In this document: positions 4,387-17,857 of the stretch, piece after piece
Layout: each line of letters begins with the position of its first letter
How positions within the stretch are numbered: the stretch's first letter is position 1
Source of the DNA: Prevotella sp.
GTDB lineage: Bacteria; Bacteroidota; Bacteroidia; Bacteroidales; Bacteroidaceae
NCBI GenBank assembly: GCA_017934525.1
Contig: JAGBJJ010000045.1
Location: forward strand, 1 to 61,039
Direction of reading: 5' to 3'
Length of the DNA: 61,039 nt
Position numbers and translations under genes: made by a program
Notes under the pieces: generated by a model
What the model saw: only the letters and a program-made list of their open reading frames with translations
What the model was told of the DNA's origin: nothing
The model's database searches: none

Positions 4387-4403
4387 ACACTGCAGACTAT
4401 ATC

Positions 4404-4464
4404 AGACGCTGACTGCGGCGGGCCCAAACACTCTGAGCGTTTGGGCCCGCCGCAGTCAGCGTCT
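4404..4464. terminator. Very long bidirectional terminator
   Basis: A perfect 26-bp GC-rich inverted repeat (4404-4429 with 4439-4464, 9-nt loop), followed on the plus strand by a T-rich tract. It separates the convergent DUF3078 and CcsBA genes. Confidence 0.93.
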
Positions 4465-4500
4465 GGCCTTTTTGCTATTTGCAATGCTGTCTGCCGCTCT

Positions 4501-6684
4501 CTAAGCGTAGGAATGCATGCCTCCTAAGAAGTAGTTCACGCCGAAGTAGGTCATGAGTATCGTCAGAAAACTGAACGTGACAAACACGTGGTACGGCACG
4601 GGGCGGCGGAAGACGGGAAACGTCTGCACGTGGGCAACGATGGCATAGACCATGAATGTGATGAGCGCCCACGTTTCTTTGGGGTCCCAGCTCCAGTAGG
4701 TGCCCCATGAGATATTGGCCCAGACGGCACCGATGAAGATGCCGAGGCCCAGTGTGGTGAGGGCGGGGTAGAGGAAAAGCCGGCTCAGCATGGCCAGCGC
4801 CTCGATGCTCTCACCCGCATGCCGGTTGAAGGCTCTGATGGTCAGTGCGGTCAGTCCGCAGATGAACGTCAGGCTAAGAAGTGCGAATGACATCATGATG
4901 ATGCTGACATGGACGGTCAGCAAGGGCGACCGCAGTACGGGCATGAGATGGCCAATCTGAGGGTCCATCTGCGAGATATGGCTCACCAGCAGGAAGAATC
5001 CGGAGAGCAGGAAGCCGAACGTCAGCATGACAGGAAAGCGCCGGACCGTGAAGAGTGTCAGCAGCTGCAGCATCCAGGCCATGAGCAGCATGGTCTCATA
5101 GCCGTTTGACATGGGTATGGTGCCACTGATAATCCATCGCAGCGACTCGCAGAGGGTGAGAGCTAAAAAGCAGACGGCCATGACGATGACGGAGAACACG
5201 ACGAAAGGCTTGCTGCGACGGCCTTTGGCAAGCGCCGCAATGAAATAGAAGAGGGTGAGGAAACCCATGGTGAGGCACACCATGAAAAGAATGGTGGCAA
5301 AGGGAATGCTGTTGTAGAGACGTTCGGCATGCAGATGCATTGACGAAGGCATCGACGCTCCCGCATGCTGCTGCTGATAGCTCAGCATCTTGTCGAGATA
5401 TGCGTTCACTTTGGTGTAGTTGCCGGCGGCGGCCTCTTCGTAGAGCAGCTGAAAGATGGTGCCCATAAACAGCCGGTTGGGCATCGGAATAGCCTCGGGC
5501 ACTTGCTCGTCGACGGGGCTGTACCATGTGGTTTCGCCCTGCAGGGTAAACGGGAAGACCTTCAGAGGGGTGCCCTGCTGCAGCTCCATGACCACCATCA
5601 GACGGTCGTCCATCTGGGCCGCCTGCTTGTTGACGCCTTCATGAGCCCCTTGTCGGTAATCCATGAGGTAAGGGCCAAGCAGGTAGTCGCCGCCGAAGAA
5701 GTCGTTGACCGATGCGCGGCCTCCGAGATGGAGCGCTTGTTTCAGCTCTTCGCCTTTTACCTTGATGAGCGGCTCGGCATCCCAGTCTTCTTTGAAAAAA
5801 ATGAAACCGGCCAGGACTTGCTCGGCACTGAATGCCCCATAGCGGCGCTGGCCGCTGAGCTTCTTGGTGAAGTCGAGGGCATAGGTCTGCAAGGGGCAGA
5901 CTCTGTCGTTGTAGACCACGCAGAGATTTCCAAAACGTTCGGCTGTCTCTTTCGGGAATGTGCGGGGAGCAGCCACTGAGAAGACGACCGGAGCGGCAAT
6001 GACAATCGTCGACAGAAGGCCGCGCTTCAGCAGAGGTGAGCTCGCTATGCGGCGATAGCTGCCTTTCGGGTCAATGAGCATCCAGATGAGACCGCAGAAC
6101 AGCAGTGCATAGCCGCAGTAGGTGACAGGAATGCCCCACGGGTCGCTGTTTACCGACAGCACCGTGCCTCTCAGGTCTTCGTCATACGACATCTGGTAGA
6201 GACGATAGCCGCCGTGACTGTATATATTGTTCATCGATACGGTGATGCCGGTTTGCAGGCTGCCATCGGTGAGCGTCAGGTGCGACTCGTAGTCGGCAGC
6301 TGCCCGCGTGCCGGGGTGGAAGCGTATGGCGAAGGTGTCGAGGCGCAGCGTAAACGGCAGTTCATGCGCCAGCGCATCGTCAGTGAGGTACTCGGCTGCT
6401 GTTTCGCCTTCGCGTATATGGATGATGCCCTGTTCTGAGAAGAGACGAGTGAGCAGTGCGCCTGCCAATATGACCACAAAGCCCAGGTGGAGCGTCACGA
6501 CAGAGGGCCGCCTGACTCTTTGCTTCAAGAGCCATGTCAGTCCGGCAGCCGTGAGCAGAGCCCAAAGCAGTGAGAACCACCATTCGACGTAGAGGCGTGT
6601 ACCGCTGAGCTTTTCTACAAAAGTGGCGATGGCCATGACGGCCACCACCACTATGTAGGATATGATGAGTGTCTTCTTCAGCAT
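4501..6684 (-). CDS. ccsBA: Cytochrome c biogenesis protein CcsBA (fused CcsB/ResB-CcsA/ResC)
   Basis: A 727-residue polytopic membrane protein for system II cytochrome c maturation, which carries heme to the outer face and attaches it to CXXCH apocytochromes. The N-terminal part has membrane helices and an extracytoplasmic domain of the CcsB/ResB type. The C-terminal part is CcsA-like, with the tryptophan-rich heme-handling (WWD) segment SWGTYWSWDPKETWALI near residues 655-670 and further helices. Its start lies only 6 nt after the stop of the di-heme cytochrome gene, so the two are almost certainly cotranscribed. The nearest gene in this window that needs heme attachment is that neighbour. 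Fused CcsBA proteins are known from epsilonproteobacteria and Bacteroidetes. Confidence 0.93.
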   Translation of the reverse strand: MLKKTLIISYIVVVAVMAIATFVEKLSGTRLYVEWWFSLLWALLTAAGLTWLLKQRVRRPSVVTLHLGFVVILAGALLTRLFSEQGIIHIREGETAAEYLTDDALAHELPFTLRLDTFAIRFHPGTRAAADYESHLTLTDGSLQTGITVSMNNIYSHGGYRLYQMSYDEDLRGTVLSVNSDPWGIPVTYCGYALLFCGLIWMLIDPKGSYRRIASSPLLKRGLLSTIVIAAPVVFSVAAPRTFPKETAERFGNLCVVYNDRVCPLQTYALDFTKKLSGQRRYGAFSAEQVLAGFIFFKEDWDAEPLIKVKGEELKQALHLGGRASVNDFFGGDYLLGPYLMDYRQGAHEGVNKQAAQMDDRLMVVMELQQGTPLKVFPFTLQGETTWYSPVDEQVPEAIPMPNRLFMGTIFQLLYEEAAAGNYTKVNAYLDKMLSYQQQHAGASMPSSMHLHAERLYNSIPFATILFMVCLTMGFLTLFYFIAALAKGRRSKPFVVFSVIVMAVCFLALTLCESLRWIISGTIPMSNGYETMLLMAWMLQLLTLFTVRRFPVMLTFGFLLSGFFLLVSHISQMDPQIGHLMPVLRSPLLTVHVSIIMMSFALLSLTFICGLTALTIRAFNRHAGESIEALAMLSRLFLYPALTTLGLGIFIGAVWANISWGTYWSWDPKETWALITFMVYAIVAHVQTFPVFRRPVPYHVFVTFSFLTILMTYFGVNYFLGGMHSYA

Positions 6685-6690
6685 ACGCGC

Positions 6691-8502
6691 TTAGATGGAC
6701 TCGATGAAGCGAACTACGGCGTCGCGGTCAGCCTTTGGTAAGGCATGGAATTTCTTGGCCGACTCGAAGGCCTGCGACTGCTTGGAGTATCCGTGCCACA
6801 TGATGGCCTCGACCACGGTGCGTGCACGGCAGTCGTGCAGGCGGTCGTCGGCACCTGTCAGTCGGCGGCTCAGACCGCGGCCCCAGAGCGGAGTAGTGCG
6901 ACACCAGCCAGTGCGGATGTCGTTCTCCATGAACAGACGGTGCTGCACCATGTCGGTGTAGGGCCAGATGGTCTGGTTGGGGAACTTAGGCAGCAGCTTG
7001 GTGTAGTCGCCATCCTTGGCAAGCCCGTTGGCATCGGCATAGGCTTTAATAGCGGCATCAACCCACATGTCGTCTTTTCCGGTCTTCCACGACGGGCGGT
7101 GGCACTGCGTGCAGCCCATCTTGCTGAACAGCTGCTTGCCGCGCTTCACCTGGTCGTCGTCAAGATTGCGTGCGGCAGGCACGGCCAGTCCGCGGTGCCA
7201 CACCATGAACTGGTAGTACTGCTTGTCGGTCATCTCCTCTTCGCTGTTGTAGGGTTTGCCGTTGAGCAGGTATTTCTCGAATACATCCTTCTTGGCAATC
7301 GACGTTGCCGAGAGAATCTCGTTGATGCGCTCGCTGATACCCTCAGCCGTTCCGTCGGCATAGTAGGGGTGAAGCACGCTTTTCTCGTCCTTGCCGTGCT
7401 GCTGGATATACTTCACCACATCCTGGTCCTCGCTCTGAGCCTTAGCCCAGGCGGGAGTGGTGTAGAGGAAGTGGCGGTCAGAACGGGTGACGTTGGTGAT
7501 GTTCCAGATGGCATTGGCACCGGCACCGTCCTGCAGCGAGCCGCGCGTCATGGCATAGGTGAAGCGCTTCAGTGGCCCGTGAGAGCCGCGGTGAGTGGCT
7601 GTGTTGTTGTAGGGAGCTGCATAGTAGGCACTGGCCTTGAATGTATTGGCCTCTTTGTCCCACATGCCGGGATTCAGGTCGATATGCTCAGACTCGGCGC
7701 GCCACTGTGCCTCGATATCCTCATCGTCGAGGGCGTCGAGCAGTCCTGTGCCGTAGATGCCGATGGTCGACTCGAGACGCACCTCATAGTTGGAGGGCTT
7801 GGGGTTGGTGTTGAAGGCCGAAACGGGGATGGTGATGTCCGGGTAGATGAGCTCGTAGGCCTCGCCGTCGCTGAAGGTCATGGCCAGTCCGCTGGGCATC
7901 TTGTCCACTTTCTTCCATTCAATCTTTATCTGGTTCTCGTCGATGGGCGCCTTGAAGGGACTCATGGCCTTGGTCTGGGGCATGCCCGTCACCTCGGTGA
8001 TGTAGCCTGACGACTCGGTGGTGTAGCGCACGCCATCCTCGGTGAAGGCTTCTTGCGGATGGTAGACCACGAGCAGATAGCCGTTGCCGATGGTGTTGGC
8101 ACGGTATTCCGTCTGGCGCTTGCCGTGGCCGTAGCTGGGATGGCAGGCAATGCAGCCGTTGCGCACCCATGCCGGGCCCAAGCCTTTGCGCGGAGCTTGG
8201 TCGACGGTGTAGAGTTTCTCGAAGAAGTCTTCGCCGACGTTGAAGTCGTCTTCCATGCCGGGGATATTAGTGACAGCAGGCACAGGGTCGCTGTAGCTGG
8301 CATTATTGGTGGTGCCGAGCTGTCCGCCGGGATACCATTCGTCGGCCGCGAACACATCGTTGGCCTGTCCGAAACTGCTTTCGGCAGGCGTCAGCTCGCC
8401 CAGTTCCTTCTTGTTGTCGTTGTCGTCGCTGCAGGCCGTCAGCAGTGGTGCTGCCACCAAAGCGGCCATGGTCCATTTGGTCAGGTTCTTCATGTTTGTC
8501 AT
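6691..8502 (-). CDS. Di-heme oxidoreductase family (DUF1111) lipoprotein
   Basis: A 603-residue lipoprotein with two c-type heme sites: CIACH near residue 117 and CTQCH near residue 465. This architecture is typical of the DUF1111/di-heme oxidoreductase ('thiol oxidoreductase') family, distantly related to di-heme peroxidases. The signal peptide ends LLTAC, and the mature protein would begin Cys-Ser-Asp-Asp-Asn-Asp-Asn; in Bacteroidetes, acidic residues after the lipid Cys favour export to the cell surface. The start could be ATG 8502 or ATG 8493; the latter gives a more standard signal peptide (MKNLTKW). It lies between imelysin and ccsBA on the same strand. From family knowledge, DUF1111 genes often sit beside imelysins in iron-related clusters. 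The electron partner is unknown. Confidence 0.9.
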   Translation of the reverse strand: MTNMKNLTKWTMAALVAAPLLTACSDDNDNKKELGELTPAESSFGQANDVFAADEWYPGGQLGTTNNASYSDPVPAVTNIPGMEDDFNVGEDFFEKLYTVDQAPRKGLGPAWVRNGCIACHPSYGHGKRQTEYRANTIGNGYLLVVYHPQEAFTEDGVRYTTESSGYITEVTGMPQTKAMSPFKAPIDENQIKIEWKKVDKMPSGLAMTFSDGEAYELIYPDITIPVSAFNTNPKPSNYEVRLESTIGIYGTGLLDALDDEDIEAQWRAESEHIDLNPGMWDKEANTFKASAYYAAPYNNTATHRGSHGPLKRFTYAMTRGSLQDGAGANAIWNITNVTRSDRHFLYTTPAWAKAQSEDQDVVKYIQQHGKDEKSVLHPYYADGTAEGISERINEILSATSIAKKDVFEKYLLNGKPYNSEEEMTDKQYYQFMVWHRGLAVPAARNLDDDQVKRGKQLFSKMGCTQCHRPSWKTGKDDMWVDAAIKAYADANGLAKDGDYTKLLPKFPNQTIWPYTDMVQHRLFMENDIRTGWCRTTPLWGRGLSRRLTGADDRLHDCRARTVVEAIMWHGYSKQSQAFESAKKFHALPKADRDAVVRFIESI

Positions 8503-8532
8503 ATCAGTTAAATTATTCTTATTGCTGGTTGA

Positions 8533-8572
8533 AGCGTCTCACCCGGAGAACTTGTTTGCCGGGCGAGGCGCT
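8533..8572 (-). other. Intra-operon hairpin between the imelysin and di-heme genes
   Basis: Imperfect 14-bp inverted repeat (8533-8546 with 8559-8572, two non-Watson-Crick positions) in the 99-nt gap between two same-strand genes. There is no U-tract after it, so an mRNA processing or attenuation element is more likely than a full terminator. Confidence 0.5.
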
Positions 8573-8601
8573 CAGTTGCTTGTTGCATATATTACTTCCG
8601 G

Positions 8602-9933
8602 TCATTCCTCTGAGGTGGAGTCCCAGTTTTCAGGATCGTCGAAATTTTTGCCCCAGACGATGCTGCAGTACTTCACGAAAGGAGCGGGCATATTGCTGAT
8701 GCTGGCAATAGATGACACATAGGCATTCTCCAGCGCTGCGTTCAGACTGCTCTGGTTAACGCTTGCGAAGAAGGTGTGGAAGGAGTATTTGGCAGCCGTC
8801 TTGTCAGTACTGCCCAGCCAGATGTTACGGATGGAACGGATGTTGTCGCGGAAGTCGGCAATAGAGTTATAGCTGTAGGGCGACTCCACATAGGCGATGT
8901 CGCCAGCCGAGAAGGGGTTGGCAATCTTGGCCGTGCCCACCTCGTTGGCAATGCCCACGCAGGAGCCCTCGGTATCGCTGAGCACCTGGGCAATGGCAGC
9001 CTGCAGGGTGGGGAAGGTGCTCTTGCTGTTTTTGCCGGCCTCCTTCAGGTTCTGACCGTATGACAGGCCGTTCACTGTCTGGAGAGCGAGGTTGGCAGCC
9101 TTCACCACCTCTACGCGGCTGACGTTCTTGGCTGTCTCGCCTTCCCAGGCCACCTGCAGCTGGAAGCAGCGCTCTTTCAGCAGGGTGCACACCTGCTGTG
9201 CATACTTCAGCTCGTCGGCACCGCTTACATCCTGGAAACTGGTGTAGGTGTCGTTGCCCTGCAACTCGGCCACGCGGCGGTTCTGGCCATTGCGGAAGAG
9301 GATGAACTCAAGGGCATGGAAACCCAGTATTGACGACTCGTCTGCAATCTCGGCTTTCATGCCGCTCTTGAAGTAGTTAAGCAGCTCGGTACGGTCGAGG
9401 GGCCAGGAGTCGATGGTGGGGTCGATGCTGAAGTCGGCGGCGGCACCCATCAGGAAGGCTTCAGAGCGCTCCCAGTGCTGGCGGGCCTGCTTGAAGTCGG
9501 CGCAGGCCTTGTCAATCTGGGCCTGGGTAATGGTGGTGGTGGTAAGTCCGTGCAGTGTCTTCTCCAAATCCTCCACGTCGTCGGCCAACTGGGTGTAAGT
9601 GGGCACGATGACCTGATCGACCAGATTGTCGAGCACCATGTAAAGATACTGCTGCTGCTCGTCGCTCAGCTTGGCTCTGCCGATGGCGCTATTGGCCTTG
9701 GTGAGCTGGTCTACCAGTGTGGCACAGGCATCGATGGCCGTATTGCCGAAGGCTTTGTTCTTGTAGTTGGCCTCCGTGGTATTGGCGGCATAGGTATCCT
9801 CGTCGACGACGGGGGTGGTCATGATGATGTTAAACTCTGTCTCGTTCTCGTTGTTGTTATCGTCATCGCTGCATGCGGTGAGAGACAGTGCGCCCAACAT
9901 GATGGCTGCGGGCAGATAGAAAAACTTTTTCAT
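8602..9933 (-). CDS. Imelysin family (M75) lipoprotein
   Basis: A 443-residue lipoprotein. The signal peptide ends SLTAC and the mature N-terminus is Cys-Ser-Asp-Asp-Asp-Asn, which suggests surface exposure in Bacteroidetes. The GxHxxE signature of the imelysin/EfeO fold is present as GFHALE near residue 203. A largely helical body follows, consistent with the two-bundle imelysin fold. Imelysins are associated with iron acquisition and are related to the EfeO component; despite the M75 peptidase label, protease activity is not established for most members. It lies second in a porin-imelysin-diheme-ccsBA series, 42 nt after the porin. Metal binding is inferred from the family. Confidence 0.93.
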   Translation of the reverse strand: MKKFFYLPAAIMLGALSLTACSDDDNNNENETEFNIIMTTPVVDEDTYAANTTEANYKNKAFGNTAIDACATLVDQLTKANSAIGRAKLSDEQQQYLYMVLDNLVDQVIVPTYTQLADDVEDLEKTLHGLTTTTITQAQIDKACADFKQARQHWERSEAFLMGAAADFSIDPTIDSWPLDRTELLNYFKSGMKAEIADESSILGFHALEFILFRNGQNRRVAELQGNDTYTSFQDVSGADELKYAQQVCTLLKERCFQLQVAWEGETAKNVSRVEVVKAANLALQTVNGLSYGQNLKEAGKNSKSTFPTLQAAIAQVLSDTEGSCVGIANEVGTAKIANPFSAGDIAYVESPYSYNSIADFRDNIRSIRNIWLGSTDKTAAKYSFHTFFASVNQSSLNAALENAYVSSIASISNMPAPFVKYCSIVWGKNFDDPENWDSTSEE

Positions 9934-9975
9934 GTGATTGTTTTTGTTTTTATTTGATATTTGTTTTATAATGGC

Positions 9976-11277
9976 TTACAGGAAGAAGCCTTCGTAAGCG
10001 ATGCCGACATTCACCGCCGGCTCATTGTTGTAGATAGACTTCAGGAAGCGGTGGCTGTATTCGGCCTTCACCACAATCTGGGGCACGGGGTGATAGTTCA
10101 GACCGACGGCCATGCGCTTTACGGCCGTGTAGTTGTAGGCTGTGCCCTTGGTTTTCGAGGCATAGGGATTGTAGGCTTCGTAGCGCCCGAAGACGTAGAG
10201 CTGGCGGTCAGACTGGCGCATCGACCTAATCTGCGAGAAGATGTCGTAGCCGGCCTCAATGCCAACAGCATAGGCATTCTTCGAAACGAAGGCTGAGTGG
10301 TGGAAAGGCGACCGAGAGTTGAGGCGGTTGTAGACGTACTTCAGTTGTGAGGCATCGCTCAGGTAGCCGTAGTCGGCCTGTCCGCGCACTATCCAGTTGT
10401 GGCCTTTGTATGTGAAGTCGAGGGCGCCGATGGCCACGCGGCCCTTGTATTCGGCGTCTACGCCGTTCTTGTTGCGTGGATAGCTGTTACCGATGGAATG
10501 GCCGTAATAGCCGCTGAGACCGATGCGCAGGCCGGACACGGCATAGTAGTCGAGGCGTGCGCTGACACCGTACTTATTGGCTACGTCATATTCCAGCGGA
10601 CTTTTATTGCCTTTGTGTATCCATCCGGTGTTAGTGAAGTGGTCGGCATTCAGGCCGGCCAGCAGCTGCGCCTCATAGCGGAAGCGACCCGCCCGGCCGA
10701 AGAATGATACGCCCGTCTGATGCCACGTGGAGGGCATGATGGTATTTTCGCCCTCAGGACGGTAGACGGTAAAGAAGTTGAGCGGTTCGTGGCGGGCATT
10801 GTTGAGGCCCACAGGTACCACGATATGGCCGATGCGCAGGTTTGCTTTGGGCGAGAAGGACTTCTGCAGCCAGAACTGCTCGAGTTCTACTTCGCCGCCT
10901 TTCTCGGTCTCCTGCTCCCATTCGCCTCCTTCTTCGTCTTCTTTTTCGTAGGCGATGCCGTTGCCGCCATGTTCGAACTCAATCTCGGTGCCGAAGGTCC
11001 AGCCTCGACCAAAATCGTAGCCCACGTAAATGACGGCATGAGGCAGGTCGAATTTGCCATGTGAGGGGTCGTTCTTGTGTTCTTCTGGTTGAGAATAACG
11101 GCTAACATGGTCGCTGAAGAAGTTGCGCGAGAAGCATACTTCGCCATACCCACCAACACTCAGACGGTTGCCTTTAGCATGGCTCATCACACTGTCGCCT
11201 GCACTCTCTTGCGCTTCTGAAGGGGTAGGGGCGCACATTATTGCCAGCGACATGATTGTAATAATACTTGTTTTCAT
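9976..11277 (-). CDS. Porin (OprO/OprP-like outer-membrane barrel)
   Basis: A 433-residue outer-membrane protein beginning with a signal peptide (MKTSIITIMSLAIM...SEAQ). Many barrel strands alternate aromatic and polar residues (GRGWTFGTEIEFEHGG, YEAQLLAGLNADHF), and it ends in a terminal aromatic residue pattern (GIAYEGFFL). It resembles the phosphate-selective porin-like family common in Bacteroidetes. An acidic loop rich in Glu/Asp (about residues 95-115) may attract cations. The start at 11277 begins the signal peptide; the frame extends further upstream, but the promoter element at 11300-11308 excludes those codons. It is the first gene of the imelysin/di-heme/ccsBA block and may provide the outer-membrane passage for that system. 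The ion carried is unknown. Confidence 0.85.
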   Translation of the reverse strand: MKTSIITIMSLAIMCAPTPSEAQESAGDSVMSHAKGNRLSVGGYGEVCFSRNFFSDHVSRYSQPEEHKNDPSHGKFDLPHAVIYVGYDFGRGWTFGTEIEFEHGGNGIAYEKEDEEGGEWEQETEKGGEVELEQFWLQKSFSPKANLRIGHIVVPVGLNNARHEPLNFFTVYRPEGENTIMPSTWHQTGVSFFGRAGRFRYEAQLLAGLNADHFTNTGWIHKGNKSPLEYDVANKYGVSARLDYYAVSGLRIGLSGYYGHSIGNSYPRNKNGVDAEYKGRVAIGALDFTYKGHNWIVRGQADYGYLSDASQLKYVYNRLNSRSPFHHSAFVSKNAYAVGIEAGYDIFSQIRSMRQSDRQLYVFGRYEAYNPYASKTKGTAYNYTAVKRMAVGLNYHPVPQIVVKAEYSHRFLKSIYNNEPAVNVGIAYEGFFL

Positions 11278-11299: not shown

Positions 11300-11308
11300 G
11301 CAAAGGTA
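11300..11308 (-). promoter_or_regulatory. -7 promoter element of the porin-imelysin-diheme-ccsBA operon
   Basis: On the minus strand this reads TACCTTTGC, 22 nt before the porin ATG. It is divergent from the regulator promoter at 11387-11395. Confidence 0.75.
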
Positions 11309-11355
11309 CGCTCTTTGAGAAAAACATGCAATACCCAAAAGTGGTGATTTTTCTT

Positions 11356-11469: not shown

Positions 11470-12432
11470 ATGAAACAGATGAAAATGTATGAGAGCGACG
11501 ACAAGATGATCTCGCTCATCCGCGATAATTACGACTTGCTGCAGATGCTGGGTAGCTTCGGCATCAGTCTGGGGTTCGGCGATAAGACGGTGGAAGAGAC
11601 GTGCGCCGACAACCATGTAGACACTTACACCTTTCTGGCCGTGGTCAATTTTTCTATCAACGGTTATTCTGACGCGCTGGTCGACGACAAACTTTCGGTG
11701 CCCACCCTCATGCATTATCTGCAAGCCAGCCATGTGTGGTATCTGGAGTTTCAGTTGCCATTCATACGAAGAGAGCTTGAGGAAAGTCTTAACCAGGATG
11801 ACTCTCTCGGCAAGCTGATACTAAGTTTTTATGATGAGTATGCCCATGAGATACGCCGCCACATGCACTATGAGCAGCGCGTGCTCTTCCCCTATGTGGA
11901 GTCGTTGCTCGACGGCAAGCCGACGGGCGACTACAACATTGAGACTTTCTCGCGGCACCACGGACAGGCTGACAAGAAGCTGCGTGAACTGAAGCTGCTC
12001 ATCATCAAATATCTGCCTCATGACGGCTTCCACAACAACAAGCTGATGGCTGCACTCCACGATATCTATGCCAATGAGGAATGGCTGCACCAACACGCCC
12101 TGGTGGAAGACAACATCTTTGTGCCGGCTATACGACGCCTGGAGCATATAAAGAAGCAGAGCGACGTGACGCGCAACATCACTGACATGGTGTTTAAGAA
12201 TGCTACTTCGCAAAACAACGAGACGCTGAGCGAGCGCGAGGTCGACGTCATTGTGGCATTGGTGCAAGGCATGGCCAACAAAGAGATTGCCGACCACCTG
12301 TGTATATCGGTCAACACGGTCATCACTCACCGGCGTAACATTGCCCGCAAACTGCAGATTCACTCACCGGCAGGGCTCACTATTTATGCTATCGTAAACG
12401 GGCTTGTTGACATCTCGGCTGTCAAGCTGTAG
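11470..12432 (+). CDS. Hemerythrin/RIC-like di-iron domain fused to a LuxR-type HTH regulator
   Basis: A 320-residue cytosolic protein with two parts. Residues 80-220 form a hemerythrin-like bundle. The candidate ligands H88, H131, E135, H163 or H164, H209 and E213 reproduce the HxxxE pairs and approximate spacing of the di-iron site in the repair protein YtfE/RIC. The N-terminal 50 residues resemble the ScdA_N segment, but the usual Cys-Cys pair is absent (GISLGFGDKT). Residues 251-315 are a LuxR/GerE helix-turn-helix (LSEREVDVIVALVQGMANKE, then SVNTVITHRRNIARKLQI). The protein probably senses oxygen, nitric oxide or iron state and controls transcription. It is divergent from the porin-imelysin-diheme-ccsBA block, so that block is the obvious candidate target. 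Confidence 0.88.
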   Translation: MKQMKMYESDDKMISLIRDNYDLLQMLGSFGISLGFGDKTVEETCADNHVDTYTFLAVVNFSINGYSDALVDDKLSVPTLMHYLQASHVWYLEFQLPFIRRELEESLNQDDSLGKLILSFYDEYAHEIRRHMHYEQRVLFPYVESLLDGKPTGDYNIETFSRHHGQADKKLRELKLLIIKYLPHDGFHNNKLMAALHDIYANEEWLHQHALVEDNIFVPAIRRLEHIKKQSDVTRNITDMVFKNATSQNNETLSEREVDVIVALVQGMANKEIADHLCISVNTVITHRRNIARKLQIHSPAGLTIYAIVNGLVDISAVKL

Positions 12433-13712: not shown

Positions 13713-14312
13713 TTATAGTCCGAAGAGTGCCTTCAAACCACCGTCTACGCCAGAGAACCCCATGAAGGCGAGGCTCAGCAGACCTGCAGTGACGAGCACG
13801 ATGGCCATGCCACGCATGCCCTTGGGGATGTTGACCATCTCGAGTTGTTCGCGCATGCCGGCAAAAACGGTCAGTGCCAAGCCAAAGCCTAAGGCCGTAG
13901 AGAAGGCGTAGGCAATGCTTTCGGCCAGGTTATAGTCTTTCTGTATGACAAGTATGGCTACACCGAGCACGGCGCAGTTGGTGGTGATGAGCGGCAGGAA
14001 GATGCCCAGTGCCTGATAAAGAGTGGGGGAGACCTTCTTCAGCACTATCTCGACCATCTGCACGAGCGACGCTATGACCAGGATGAACGCTATCGTCTGA
14101 AGGTACTCTAAGCCGAAAGCCTCGAGCACAAACTTTTGCACAAGCCATGTGACCACCGTGGCCAGCGTCAGCACGAAGGCCACAGCCGCCGACATGCCGA
14201 GCGATGTCTCAATCTTCTTCGAGACGCCCAGAAAGGGACAAATGCCCAGAAATTGCGACAGGACAATATTGTTGACGAATATCGCAGAGATGAAAATTAA
14301 CAGGTATTCCAT
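13713..14312 (-). CDS. rnfA: Rnf/Rsx complex subunit A
   Basis: A 199-residue integral membrane protein with six predicted helices and the family N-terminus (LLIFISAIFVNNIVLSQFLG, CPFLGVSKK). RnfA and RnfE are homologous, inverted membrane subunits that form the electron and ion path of the Rnf complex. That complex couples ferredoxin:NAD oxidoreduction to Na+ or H+ translocation. It is the last gene of the rnfBCDGEA order, 12 nt after rnfE. Most of the length is hydrophobic, in line with family members of about 190-200 residues. The coupling ion cannot be told from sequence reading. Confidence 0.96.
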   Translation of the reverse strand: MEYLLIFISAIFVNNIVLSQFLGICPFLGVSKKIETSLGMSAAVAFVLTLATVVTWLVQKFVLEAFGLEYLQTIAFILVIASLVQMVEIVLKKVSPTLYQALGIFLPLITTNCAVLGVAILVIQKDYNLAESIAYAFSTALGFGLALTVFAGMREQLEMVNIPKGMRGMAIVLVTAGLLSLAFMGFSGVDGGLKALFGL

Positions 14313-14324
14313 GACTTGTGAGAT

Positions 14325-14909
14325 TTACTGTTTCTTGATTTTGTTGACAATGGCGATGAGAAAGCCCAGGGTGATGAAAGCACCGGGAGGCAGGATGAAG
14401 AGGAGCACATTGTATGTCTCGGGCAGCAGTTTGAAGCCGAAGAGCATGCCGGCCCCCAGAAGCTCGCGCAGCATGCCGAGCAGGGTGAGGGCGAGGGTGA
14501 AGCCAAGGCCAATGCCTATGCCGTCGAAGAGCGATGCCAGCGGTGTGTTCTTACAGGCAAAAGCCTCTGCACGCCCCAGGATGATGCAGTTGACCACAAT
14601 GAGCGGAATGAAGAGGCCGAGCGCTTTGTCAACATCGGGCAGATAGGCTTTGATGACCATCTGAAGGATGGTGACGAAGGCTGCGATGACCACGATGAAT
14701 ACTGGTATGCGCACTTTGTCGGGCGTGAGCTGCTTGATGAGCGAGATGACAAAGTTGGTGCATATGAGCACGGCCATCGTAGCCAGACCCATCGACATGC
14801 CGTTGATGGCCGACGTGGTGGTGGCTAAGGTGGGACACATGCCAAGCATCAGGACAAAGGTGGGGTTCTCCTTGCTGATGCCGTTTTTGATGATATCTAT
14901 ATATTTCAT
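14325..14909 (-). CDS. rnfE: Rnf/Rsx complex subunit E
   Basis: A 194-residue polytopic membrane subunit. It has the RnfE N-terminal signature NPTFVLMLGMCPTLATTTSA and six hydrophobic helices. Its start overlaps the rnfG stop by 4 nt (ATGA type), indicating translational coupling. It pairs with RnfA in the membrane core, where conserved Cys residues (here in GMCPTLA) help bind a buried iron-sulfur centre in characterised Rnf complexes. Length is normal for the family. Confidence 0.96.
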   Translation of the reverse strand: MKYIDIIKNGISKENPTFVLMLGMCPTLATTTSAINGMSMGLATMAVLICTNFVISLIKQLTPDKVRIPVFIVVIAAFVTILQMVIKAYLPDVDKALGLFIPLIVVNCIILGRAEAFACKNTPLASLFDGIGIGLGFTLALTLLGMLRELLGAGMLFGFKLLPETYNVLLFILPPGAFITLGFLIAIVNKIKKQ

Positions 14910-15496
14910 AGCGTTTCCTCCTTTGTTTGTGTGATAGCTTTTGACGTGGCTTGTTGGTACGATGCATAGGCGGCGTTGACCGCGTTGAGGAAGGCTCGGC
15001 TCGTGATGGTCGAGGCTGTGATGGCGTCAACCTCTCCGCCGTCTTTCTTCACTTTGAGCGGTGTGGCGGGGTTCATGCCCACGATGTCGCCCTTCTGCCC
15101 TTTCTGGAACCATACGTCGGCCTTTGCCCCAAGTCCGGGTGTCTCGGCATGCTCCAGCAGCTGATACCCCCTGATGTTGCCTTCGGTGTCGAAACCTACG
15201 AGCAGGCGCAGAGTGCCCCCGAATCCCATGGTCTGGCTCTCCACGGCCGCACCTATTGGCGAGTGATTCTCAGTCACCTGATAGATAATGTTGCCGTCGA
15301 TGGTGTCGGTAGCTGCCACTTCCACCTGGTCGGAGAGCATGACCGCGCGGATGCCATCAGCCAGGGCCTTCTCCTTCTGCTGCATGATGGGGCCACTGGT
15401 TACGTTGTTTACCAGCGCGAGTATGCCTCCCATAATGACTGCCACAAGTGTGAGCACAAGCACCATGTTGGTCAGTGATGAATCTAACTTCTTCAT
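14906..15496 (-). CDS. rnfG: Rnf/Rsx complex subunit G (FMN-binding)
   Basis: A 196-residue protein with one N-terminal membrane anchor (NMVLVLTLVAVIMGGILALV) and an extracytoplasmic FMN-binding domain. The C-terminal segment DAITASTITSRAF near residues 155-167 matches the motif whose Thr carries covalently bound FMN, attached by ApbE. The heading motif ETPGLGAKADVWFQKG is also typical of RnfG/NqrC. It overlaps both rnfD (4 nt) and rnfE (4 nt). No apbE gene lies in this window, so flavinylation must be provided from elsewhere. Confidence 0.96.
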   Translation of the reverse strand: MKKLDSSLTNMVLVLTLVAVIMGGILALVNNVTSGPIMQQKEKALADGIRAVMLSDQVEVAATDTIDGNIIYQVTENHSPIGAAVESQTMGFGGTLRLLVGFDTEGNIRGYQLLEHAETPGLGAKADVWFQKGQKGDIVGMNPATPLKVKKDGGEVDAITASTITSRAFLNAVNAAYASYQQATSKAITQTKEETL

Positions 15497-16494
15497 TTCT
15501 TCACCTCCTCTCCAAAGCGTTTAGGCTTGATGTAGTTGTTGATGAGCGGTGTGAAGGCATTCATGATGAGAATGGCAAACGACATGCCTTCAGGATATGC
15601 GCCCCAGTTACGTATGATGATGGTCAGCAGGCCGATGCTCACGCCATAGATGAGCTGTCCCTTGTGGGTCATGGGCGAGGTGACGTAGTCGGTGGCCATG
15701 AAGATGGCTCCCAGCATGAGTCCGCCACTCAGTATGACGGCAAAGGGGTCGGCATAGGCGGGGCTGACGACGTGCATGATGGCACTGACGAAGAAGACGG
15801 TGCCGATGATGCTGACGGGTATGTGCCATGTGATGATGCGCCGATAGAGCAGATAGACAAAGCCGACGATGAGCGCGAGGCCGCATATCTCGCCGATGGT
15901 GCCGGCGCCGCCGGCAAACGAGTGCTCGCCCAGCAGGAGGCTGAAGGCGTCAGGCATTTTGTCAAGCACCGACGCATCGCCCGTCTTGATGGCTTGCTTC
16001 ATCAGCGCCAGCGGCGTGGCTCCCGTCTCGGCATCCATGTAGTTGGTCCACTTGCCTGGAACGGGCCAGGTGGTCATCTGGGCGGGAAATGCCACCAGAA
16101 GGGCGCATCGCCCCACAAGGGCAGGATTGAAAATGTTGTTGCCGAGTCCGCCGAAAGACATTTTTGCCACGCCGATGGCAAAGAGTGCTCCGATGAAGAC
16201 AATCCACACTGGCAGGTTGGAAGGCAGGTTCATGCCGAGAAGCAGACCGGTAAGCATGGCCGACCCGTCGAGCACGGTGTTGCGTGGGTTCTTCAGCACA
16301 TATTTGTTGATGGCCCACTCGAGAAACACGCAGAAGACGACGCTCGACAGGCATACGATGGCCGAGCCTATGCCGAAGTAGTAGAACGACACGAGCAGTG
16401 CAGGCATCAGTGCTATGAGTACACCGTACATGTTGCGTTCCACGGAGTCGTTGCCGTGGGCATGTGGTGAAAGTGATACAATGAGCTTGTTCAT
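15493..16494 (-). CDS. rnfD: Rnf/Rsx complex subunit D (FMN-binding membrane subunit)
   Basis: A 333-residue membrane protein (RnfD/NqrB family). The start at 16494 (MNKLIVSLSPHAHG) is the conserved N-terminus; an upstream extension in frame overlaps rnfC and is not credible. The covalent-FMN Thr lies in ETGATPLALM near residue 158. Several helices and the family stretch GNNIFNPALVGRCALLVAFP are present. It lies between rnfC and rnfG, 13 nt after rnfC. It belongs to the electron route from cytoplasmic ferredoxin to NAD. Confidence 0.96.
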   Translation of the reverse strand: MNKLIVSLSPHAHGNDSVERNMYGVLIALMPALLVSFYYFGIGSAIVCLSSVVFCVFLEWAINKYVLKNPRNTVLDGSAMLTGLLLGMNLPSNLPVWIVFIGALFAIGVAKMSFGGLGNNIFNPALVGRCALLVAFPAQMTTWPVPGKWTNYMDAETGATPLALMKQAIKTGDASVLDKMPDAFSLLLGEHSFAGGAGTIGEICGLALIVGFVYLLYRRIITWHIPVSIIGTVFFVSAIMHVVSPAYADPFAVILSGGLMLGAIFMATDYVTSPMTHKGQLIYGVSIGLLTIIIRNWGAYPEGMSFAILIMNAFTPLINNYIKPKRFGEEVKK

Positions 16495-16507
16495 TATGAT
16501 GCGGAGA

Positions 16508-17857
16508 TTATTTGATGTTACGTGAACGGATGATGCCCATGACGGTCGACTTGCCCTGGCGTATGTTGTCGAGCAGCGGGCGGTGGGCCGGGCAGGTGAA
16601 CTGGCAAGAGCCACACTCGATACATGAGGTGATCATCTCACGTTCGGCGCGCTCCCAGTTCTTCATGGTGCTGAGCGATGCAAGCAGGTATGGCTCCAGA
16701 CCCATGGGGCATGCTCCTACGCATTTGGCACATCGGATGCATGGCTGCGGCTCCTTGCGCAGGGCATCGCTGCCGCTGAGAATAGTCACCGAGTTGGTGC
16801 CTTTGCAGACAGGGACCTCGGCCGTTGTCAGCGCCTTGCCCATCATGGGACCTCCGGCCAGCAACTTGTTGTCGCCTTCAGGCATGCCGCCGCATGCATC
16901 GATGAGATTTATCATGGGAGTGCCCATGCGCACCAGGAAGTTGGCGGGGTGCTGCAGGCGTTTGCCCGTGACGGTGGTGTAGCGCTCGAAGAGGGGCTTG
17001 TGCTTCATGACGGCTTCATAGACGGCGAAGGCCGTGCCTACGTTCTGCACTATAGCCCCTACGTTGACGGGTATGGCAGGAGGCGCAGGCACCTGGCGGC
17101 GTATGACGGCATCGACGAGCTGCTTCTCTCCGCCTTGGGGGTAACGTTGCTGCAGCGGCACAACCTCTATGCGGTCGTCGTGGCGTGTCTTCTCCTCGAA
17201 GAGTGAGATGGCTTTGGGCTTGTTCACTTCGATGCCTATGTAACCCTTTTCAACTTTTGTGGCCTTCATGAGCAGATAGAGGCCCACGAGAATCTCGTCG
17301 GCATGTTCCATCATCAGGCGGTAGTCGGCCGTGATGTAAGGCTCACATTCCACCGCGTTGATAATGACACATTCGGCCTTGGCTGTGGGAGGCGGCGTAA
17401 GCTTGATGAAGGTGGGGAATCCGGCACCGCCCATGCCGGTGACACCTGCTGTCTTGATGCGCTCCACAATTTCCTCAGGAGTAAGCTCGGGGTGCGCCTC
17501 AAGGGTCTCCAGCTTGTCGGAGCGGTCGATGGAGTCTTCCCATTCGTCGCCCTCCACCTTGACGATGATTGCAGGTTTCCTGTAGCCGGTAGCGTCGACT
17601 GCACTGTCAATCTTTGCGATGGTGCCGCTCACCGACGAGTAGATGGGGGCCGACACAAAGCCGCCGGCTTCGGCCAGCAGCGTCCCCACTCGTACCTTGT
17701 CGCCCACTTTCACCACAGGCTTGGCCGGTGCGCCGATGTGCTGCGAGAGCGGAAATATGGCTTGGGCAGGCAATTCGGCCACTCGGGTAGGAACCTCGTG
17801 AGTCAGTTTGTTTTCTTCTGGGTGTATGCCACCTATGCGGAATGTCTTTATTTTCAT
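16508..17857 (-). CDS. rnfC: Rnf/Rsx complex subunit C (NADH-interacting iron-sulfur subunit)
   Basis: A 449-residue peripheral subunit related to the NADH-binding subunit of complex I. It starts with the barrel-like N-terminus MKIKTFRIGGIHP, carries the Gly-rich nucleotide/flavin-binding stretch TGMGGAGFPTFIKL near residue 140, and ends with two 4Fe-4S motifs: CIRCAKCVGACP near 365-376 and CIECGSCQFTCP near 405-416. The start at 17857 overlaps the rnfB stop by 4 nt; a longer in-frame extension inside rnfB was discarded. This is the site of NAD+/NADH reaction in Rnf. The C-terminus is shorter than in E. coli RsxC and lacks the long Ala/Lys-rich repeat. Confidence 0.96.
   Translation of the reverse strand: MKIKTFRIGGIHPEENKLTHEVPTRVAELPAQAIFPLSQHIGAPAKPVVKVGDKVRVGTLLAEAGGFVSAPIYSSVSGTIAKIDSAVDATGYRKPAIIVKVEGDEWEDSIDRSDKLETLEAHPELTPEEIVERIKTAGVTGMGGAGFPTFIKLTPPPTAKAECVIINAVECEPYITADYRLMMEHADEILVGLYLLMKATKVEKGYIGIEVNKPKAISLFEEKTRHDDRIEVVPLQQRYPQGGEKQLVDAVIRRQVPAPPAIPVNVGAIVQNVGTAFAVYEAVMKHKPLFERYTTVTGKRLQHPANFLVRMGTPMINLIDACGGMPEGDNKLLAGGPMMGKALTTAEVPVCKGTNSVTILSGSDALRKEPQPCIRCAKCVGACPMGLEPYLLASLSTMKNWERAEREMITSCIECGSCQFTCPAHRPLLDNIRQGKSTVMGIIRSRNIK

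Follow-up and report, generated by a model that had tools for sequence, protein, structure and literature searches.

The window considered here, the whole of the 61,039-nucleotide (nt) Prevotella contig JAGBJJ010000045.1 (assembly GCA_017934525.1), carries on its minus strand, from 11277 down to 4501, four genes encoding a porin, an imelysin, a DUF1111 protein (DHOR) and the cytochrome c synthase CcsBA. Since their co-occurrence and order are kept across relatives, the four genes form a real unit, and the unit is probably an outer-membrane system for acquiring iron, similar to EfeUOB in its way of working and different in its components. The link between imelysins and DUF1111 proteins is known; the set with an acidic porin, CcsBA and a promoter element seems to be new. 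A sequence-only reading had placed four genes on the same strand at these positions, where they indeed lie, and had taken them for a surface redox and metal-capture module with its own maturation protein, an interpretation that is now partly supported.

Gene neighborhoods were compared over 149 relatives, 90 within the genus and 59 outside it, the window's own genome (G000) being 76.5% complete. In addition, 140 loci with a DHOR frame were compared, those from 80 named contigs spanning Prevotella in the wide sense, Xylanibacter ruminicola, Hoylesella marshii, Leyella lascolaii, Prevotellamassilia, Limisoma and others. The sets of loci overlap in part (139 long DHOR frames, 130 of them distinct), and locus counts hold some duplicates; counts of proteins (porin glutamates, N-termini, motifs, CcsBA residues) are of distinct sequences. 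DHOR (PF06537) is found in 68 of the 149 relatives and imelysin (PF09375) in 69. Both are present in 67 and neither in 79, leaving one of the pair alone in 1 and 2 genomes, a nearly perfect co-occurrence whose Fisher values are overstated, as related species are not independent. A profile of the acidic porin (threshold E < 1e-80) marks 69 genomes, 66 with DHOR and 3 with the porin only, and 2 genomes have DHOR only. Imelysin lies no more than two frames upstream of DHOR in 133 of the 140 loci, the porin no more than four frames upstream in 133, and the three genes keep their order and strand in most loci. Gaps between genes are short: medians of 46.5 nt from porin to imelysin (n=134), 33 nt from imelysin to DHOR (n=131) and 58 nt from DHOR to CcsBA (n=99), with 42, 99 and 6 nt, respectively, in the window. 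The grouping of porin, imelysin and DHOR seen in the sequence-only reading is thus a conserved one, and the co-occurrence together with the kept order rules out a chance neighborhood.

Six genomes break the pattern of porin, imelysin and DHOR. Two are contig cuts: the apparent imelysin without DHOR in G085 has a 283-amino-acid DHOR piece that begins at the contig end, and G087 has a 4.7-kb contig starting before imelysin. Two hold relics, pieces of imelysin and CcsBA with no porin or DHOR in G012 (L196 6919-9469), and in G069 (L069) an 80-residue C-terminus of DHOR directly after the promoter region of the hemerythrin (HHE)-LuxR gene described below. The remaining two, G011 (with a truncated porin) and G021, are true exceptions. 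As for four of the loci counted as lacking imelysin, the gene is masked by a frame on the other strand in L155 and L160, DHOR lies near a contig end in L144, and imelysin is three frames off in L123, which has no porin label.

In a second-look fold alignment the closest solved folds to the porin are 16-strand barrels of the OprP/OprO type; no Pfam family matched it, PF07396 included, and a sequence search of solved structures gave nothing useful. Ten glutamates (E98, E100, E102, E111, E116, E119, E121, E125, E129 and E133) are present in all 126 distinct porins of the unit. Within this stretch, residues 104-128 form an acidic insert that comes after predicted strand 3 and before strand 4. When 17 distant porins were aligned (13 from other families, L193, L194 and the second porins of L035 and L087), the insert was absent in 13 and shrunk to a short piece in 4. 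One locus (L183 1728-6928) has a porin without the insert beside separate hemerythrin and LuxR-like frames and, judged by eye, thioredoxin-like and ApbE-like genes.

The imelysin has M75 as its sole domain among matches up to E 0.01, with no cupredoxin domain. Its closest solved relatives are 3n8u, the imelysin of Bacteroides ovatus, and 4ecg. The protein aligns to the Pfam profile in one run and to 3n8u in two stretches, so by its sequence it seems not to be circularly permuted; the imelysins of L071, L074 and L075 (G144, G025 and G066) match the profile in swapped order, unlike those of L072 and L073. Both imelysin and DHOR have N-termini of the type that the sequence-only reading linked to surface export, and this feature is conserved: at least two acidic residues occur at positions +2 to +6 in 104 of 125 imelysins and 103 of 116 DHORs, versus 18 of 64 other lipoproteins of the same loci. 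A consensus of SDDDD has been proposed for the surface-export signal of B. fragilis, according to the account in PMC5080379. Both lipoproteins are presumably exposed at the surface.

All 130 distinct DHOR relatives have exactly two CxxCH motifs, the heme sites given in Table 1 (where the columns of the two sites are numbered from the second residue of DHOR). The fold resembles those of di-heme cytochrome c peroxidases and MauG, with moderate Z scores, and families missing from the fold lists are not taken as evidence of absence. Comparison of the DHOR sequence profile with solved structures turned up no DHOR relative, just a short c-type heme match.

CcsBA is expected to attach these hemes. 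The four heme histidines (H66, H592, H685 and H724) and the WWD motif are conserved in the protein of the window; heme attachment by CcsBA depends on these residues, as set out in PMC6299221. Among 44 copies of at least 550 amino acids (the window plus loci L032-L098, the first 67 loci), TM-His1 is kept in 42, P-His1 in 44, TM-His2 in 43 and P-His2 in 44, and the WWD motif is kept as well. A CcsBA relative follows DHOR within five frames in 106 of the 140 loci: 80 are of at least 550 amino acids, 17 of 300-549 and 9 shorter. At the level of genomes, CcsA is matched in 58 of the 61 DHOR-positive members of the genus. The three others are G036 and G089, where DHOR lies 57 and 252 nt from the contig end, and the relic in G069.

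Is this synthase the unit's own, or is it the general cytochrome c synthase of the cell, located in the unit by chance? There are 36 DHOR-positive genomes of the genus with a CcsA match and no NrfA, many with a single match, and some DHOR loci without CcsBA must rely on a CcsA elsewhere, as a general synthase would allow. But the window's own genome has, besides the fused CcsBA, a second and short CcsA beside NrfA, and therefore the fused protein seems to belong to the unit. Moreover, CcsA is matched in just 6 of the 22 members of the genus that lack both DHOR and NrfA, and in G044 a split ResB/CcsA pair takes the place of CcsBA. That CcsBA is the general synthase is rather unlikely. The dedicated CcsBA of the sequence-only reading survives insofar as it is distinct from the short CcsA beside NrfA, and fails insofar as it is missing or shortened in part of the loci: an own CcsBA is typical of the unit, not obligatory.

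The replacement in G044 (L068 9930-12282, after turning the locus) consists of a 188-amino-acid protein along with the split pair. At ten further distinct loci (L091, L092, L113, L124, L126, L136, L140, L145, L162 and L169) a protein of 179-194 amino acids follows DHOR, without a larger CcsBA in the next frames. These proteins of about 180-195 amino acids resemble the central or periplasmic part of CcsBA (by eye and in part by BLAST label), and the L091 copy has no Pfam match. Perhaps they are helpers specific to DHOR.

Upstream of the porin lies a Bacteroidales-type -7 box and, farther out, a divergent gene encoding a HHE-LuxR protein, which is the divergent neighbor in 64 of the 133 loci with a readable upstream gene. 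(A scan for sigma-70 promoters, uninformative in this phylum, gave 5 sites versus 3.0 expected.) Of the 61 upstream regions with an HHE-LuxR neighbor (56 of them distinct), 50 contain the 8-mer TAGGTATT or the complement of it, versus 1.1 in shuffled sequences. In 49 of the 61 (45 distinct) there is TAnnTTTG with enough sequence preceding it, and GTATTG stands at the identical distance in all 49; the 12 regions left out of this count have GTATTG somewhere in 8 cases and not in 4. A looser form of the element is found upstream of 31 of 68 porins without an HHE-LuxR neighbor. Across genomes, GGTATTG-N20-TANNTTTGC has 337 sites in the 90 members of the genus, 86 of which have at least one, and a reversed control has 3 sites over all 149 genomes. 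The element, as GGTATTG-N20-TAnnTTTGC, also precedes HHE-LuxR genes far from the unit (G008, G016, G045 and G079). Relatives of the HHE-LuxR protein are found in 145 of the 149 genomes, so if it acts on the GGTATTG element, as we infer, its regulon must be wider than the unit.

What else the element precedes was judged from 40 sites picked from the listed sites before their genes were known, those beside the module or the regulator gene being mostly omitted. They comprise 6 of the 6 sites in G061, 8/11 in G016, 4/5 in G045, 3/4 in G081, 3/4 in G032, 4/5 in G001, 5/6 in G018, 5/7 in G054 and 2/9 in G042, and the gene assigned to each was the longest frame starting within 500 nt. Flavodoxin is a classic gene of iron limitation. 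It lies downstream of 7 of the 40 sites, in 7 of the 9 genomes, 37-447 nt away (six by a strict text pattern plus L256 by eye; one copy, L229, was confirmed by Pfam). The element also stands before TonB receptors (one confirmed by Pfam) and proteins of the CbiX and PepSY types. At one locus (L195 3622-8614) a PepSY-type protein, a TonB receptor and a CbiK-like gene, recognized by eye, adjoin the unit itself.

Table 1. Positions of the unit and its associated features within the window.
Feature	Position	Strand	Match or score
Divergent hemerythrin (HHE)-LuxR gene, proposed regulator	11470..12432	+	PF01814 + PF00196
Porin promoter element GGTATTG-N20-TACCTTTGC	11300..11335	-	
OprP-like 16-strand porin, 433 aa, first gene of unit	9976..11277	-	
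Glutamate-rich porin stretch, residues 98-133	10879..10986	-	ten invariant glutamates
Imelysin (M75) lipoprotein, mature start CSDDD	8602..9933	-	PF09375 2.5e-39
GxHxxE motif (GFHALE) of imelysin	9307..9324	-	motif in 129/129 distinct imelysins
RNA hairpin between imelysin and DHOR genes, without T-tract	8532..8573	-	z -2.45; 4/200 shuffles as good
DHOR (DUF1111) di-heme c lipoprotein, mature start CSDDN	6691..8502	-	PF06537 3.7e-31
First heme c site CIACH	8140..8154	-	invariant columns C116, C119, H120
Second heme c site CTQCH	7099..7113	-	invariant columns C463, C466, H467
CcsBA, System II cytochrome c synthase, 727 aa	4501..6684	-	ResB + Cytochrom_C_asm matches
30-bp perfect hairpin at unit end, before convergent DUF3078 gene	4403..4465	-	z -10.9

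The conserved gene set, motifs, acidic insert and promoter element can be read from the sequences themselves; what they do must be put more cautiously. In the model favored here, imelysin at the outer face of the cell would capture iron or an iron complex, and DHOR would change the oxidation state of the iron so held. The glutamates on two strands of the porin barrel and the acidic loop between them would then draw the cation through the outer membrane. Movement of Fe2+ across the inner membrane would fall to FeoB rather than to a permease of the EfeU/FTR1 type: FeoB_C is found in 135 of the 149 genomes, the window's own included, and FTR1 (PF03239) in 1 of the 149 (G102), a genome that is neither the window's own nor DHOR-positive. 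Because FeoB carries Fe2+, reduction of Fe3+ has a slight edge over oxidation. CcsBA, encoded last, would attach the two hemes to DHOR, and the divergent HHE-LuxR protein would be the likely switch, acting through the GGTATTG element, which relatives also have ahead of flavodoxin. The identity of the metal, the direction of the redox step, the cation selectivity of the channel, the exposure at the surface and the pairing of regulator with element are parts of a proposal. An acidic porin and a promoter element shared with flavodoxin do fit the metal capture (here of iron) of the sequence-only reading.

Work on other bacteria points in the same direction. Outside this phylum, imelysins have been tied both to iron and to proteins of the DUF1111 family (PMC3143127). 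For Prevotella bryantii an imelysin is listed with the proteins related to iron (PMC7709123), and a Bizionia mutant in an iron regulator is reported to have less of an imelysin-like transcript (PMC9478572). For Leptospira, H2O2 is described as inducing an imelysin operon that includes a gene of the cytochrome type, and the two imelysins of this operon as rising under iron limitation too (PMC7567364).

A bolder form of the model, tentative and less likely to be right than wrong, takes the porin as the negative image of OprP: a TonB-independent iron channel with a run of glutamates for the arginine ladder. Imelysin and DHOR, the latter served by the synthase of the unit, would load it as a redox pair at the surface, and the hemerythrin-LuxR protein would be an iron sensor that switches it by way of the promoter element. 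If true, iron would pass the outer membrane without siderophore, heme or TonB.

Several observations weigh against an iron acquisition unit. The proposal is drawn from sequence, and a thermal-shift test of two imelysins of known structure is reported to have shown no binding of heme or of ferric ion (PMC3143127). The orientation of the porin glutamates toward the lumen is deduced from the alternation of strand residues in a predicted barrel, and the acidic loop is modelled at a predicted local distance difference test (pLDDT) of about 51-57. The acidic porin occurs in G021 (50% complete) without imelysin and DHOR beside it. CcsBA is not always at hand: 31 of the 140 loci have room for it and no CcsBA label within five frames after DHOR, and 3 more are at a contig edge. 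The hairpin between imelysin and DHOR could split the transcripts; weak as it is, it may mark a drop in transcript there, possibly a site of processing or attenuation. Then there is the element. Outside the genus only 15 of the 59 genomes have it, and 7 of the 59 carry DHOR together with imelysin. At most of the 40 sites the gene that follows is not flavodoxin, and several of these other genes have no link to iron (enolase, cysteine synthase and TetR by eye, a methyltransferase by Pfam); some of the flavodoxin frames lie more than 250 nt from the element. Finally, strict sites number just two in the genome of the window, and the second of them is followed, after about 330 nt, by a frame that looks unrelated.

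Alternatively, the unit might defend the surface against peroxide, with DHOR a di-heme peroxidase acting on H2O2, imelysin binding loose iron that would otherwise feed Fenton chemistry, and the porin a general channel. The fold match of DHOR to di-heme cytochrome c peroxidases and MauG speaks for such a defense, as does the induction of the Leptospira operon by H2O2 noted above; still, we consider it improbable. A slightly poorer chance goes to a DHOR of the MauG/MbnH type that would oxidize side chains of imelysin (or of the porin), thereby creating a metal site for copper or iron. MbnH and its partner MbnP offer the parallel, but many other di-heme peroxidases match DHOR equally well. An outer-membrane electron conduit, in which porin and di-heme lipoprotein would serve an outside acceptor and imelysin would hold a metal, is very improbable: a porin joined to a c-type heme lipoprotein and to a maturation protein for the latter might suit one, as might the lipoprotein with one CxxCH added at L071, L072 and L075, but the unit has just two hemes on one lipoprotein and no multiheme cytochrome, and its porin is OprP-like, with 16 strands.

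The loci just named (and L073, judging by the sizes of its frames) carry three extra genes: besides the lipoprotein with one CxxCH they encode a Rid-family protein and another porin, which in L075 matches PF07396 (9e-54). These additions may hint at an electron carrier. The Rid-family protein (Ribonuc_L-PSP), of about 380 amino acids, lies downstream of DHOR or CcsBA in 24 of the 140 loci. Two sets are found on records labelled as plasmids. One (L271, OY725994.1 452-8069) is the full series of porin, imelysin, DHOR, CcsBA and Rid on a 76.9-kb circular record from Phocaeicola massiliensis that also holds, beside genes of the transfer type, chromosome-like genes of the type of glucose-6-phosphate dehydrogenase (by eye) and is possibly a misjoined or integrated element. 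The other (L272, NZ_CP082843.1) is on a 568-kb second replicon of Prevotella nigrescens. The putative portability of the unit rests on these two records. Beyond the unit, the window has at 13713-16614, on the minus strand, what by eye are genes of the Rnf type adjoining galE.

Imelysins have long been linked to iron without a mechanism, and their functions are called poorly understood in PMC3143127. How inorganic iron crosses the outer membrane of anaerobes like Prevotella is, in our judgement, likewise poorly known. The conserved set names a channel with an acidic loop, a redox enzyme, a factor for its maturation and, along with a promoter element, a likely regulator, and is therefore directly testable. 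In practical terms, the acidic insert is a simple sequence marker for such porins; the porin of the window has no Pfam match.

How does the unit compare with known systems? Among the titles and abstracts listed by searches of the open literature, none describes the set with porin, CcsBA and promoter element, a weak negative with most subscription journals outside its scope. Nearest are the operons of imelysin and DUF1111, mentioned in the sequence-only reading and in print since 2011, with Pseudomonas PA4370-4373 and the PIBO locus of B. ovatus as the cases given (PMC3143127). They share with the unit an M75 protein with GxHxxE beside DUF1111, a lipoprotein and a proposed link to iron. As those operons are described there, however, the unit differs in having an acidic OprP-like porin ahead and CcsBA behind, and PIBO is reported to be circularly permuted, whereas the imelysin of the window apparently is not.

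EfeUOB likewise combines a protein with an imelysin domain, a heme enzyme and a channel. Membership in that system can be ruled out: the unit lacks the FTR1 permease, the cupredoxin domain in its imelysin and EfeB, whose place is taken by the c-type di-heme DHOR, and unlike EfeUOB it has outer-membrane parts and needs CcsBA. The EfeB of E. coli is of the DyP type. EfeB is called a member of DUF1111 in the account of PMC3143127.

The other relatives are of single components. CcsBA of Helicobacter hepaticus (System II), as portrayed in PMC6299221, has the same fusion of ResB and CcsA, four heme histidines and WWD motif; the unit's CcsBA differs in being embedded in an imelysin operon, and its relatives include compact forms of about 340-410 amino acids and the stand-alone protein of about 185. 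DHOR shares a moderate fold match and two CxxCH motifs with the superfamily of di-heme cytochrome c peroxidases and MauG, but it has 603 amino acids versus about 300-420 in the matched peroxidase chains. Conduits of the Mtr type are defined by a multiheme cytochrome with a porin. Unlike these, the unit has two heme sites only. Lastly, the phosphate and pyrophosphate porins OprP and OprO have the 16-strand fold that is predicted for the porin of the window. OprP uses an arginine ladder (so the title of 2o4v); in the porin of the unit the conserved charged run is one of invariant glutamates, with an extra acidic loop.

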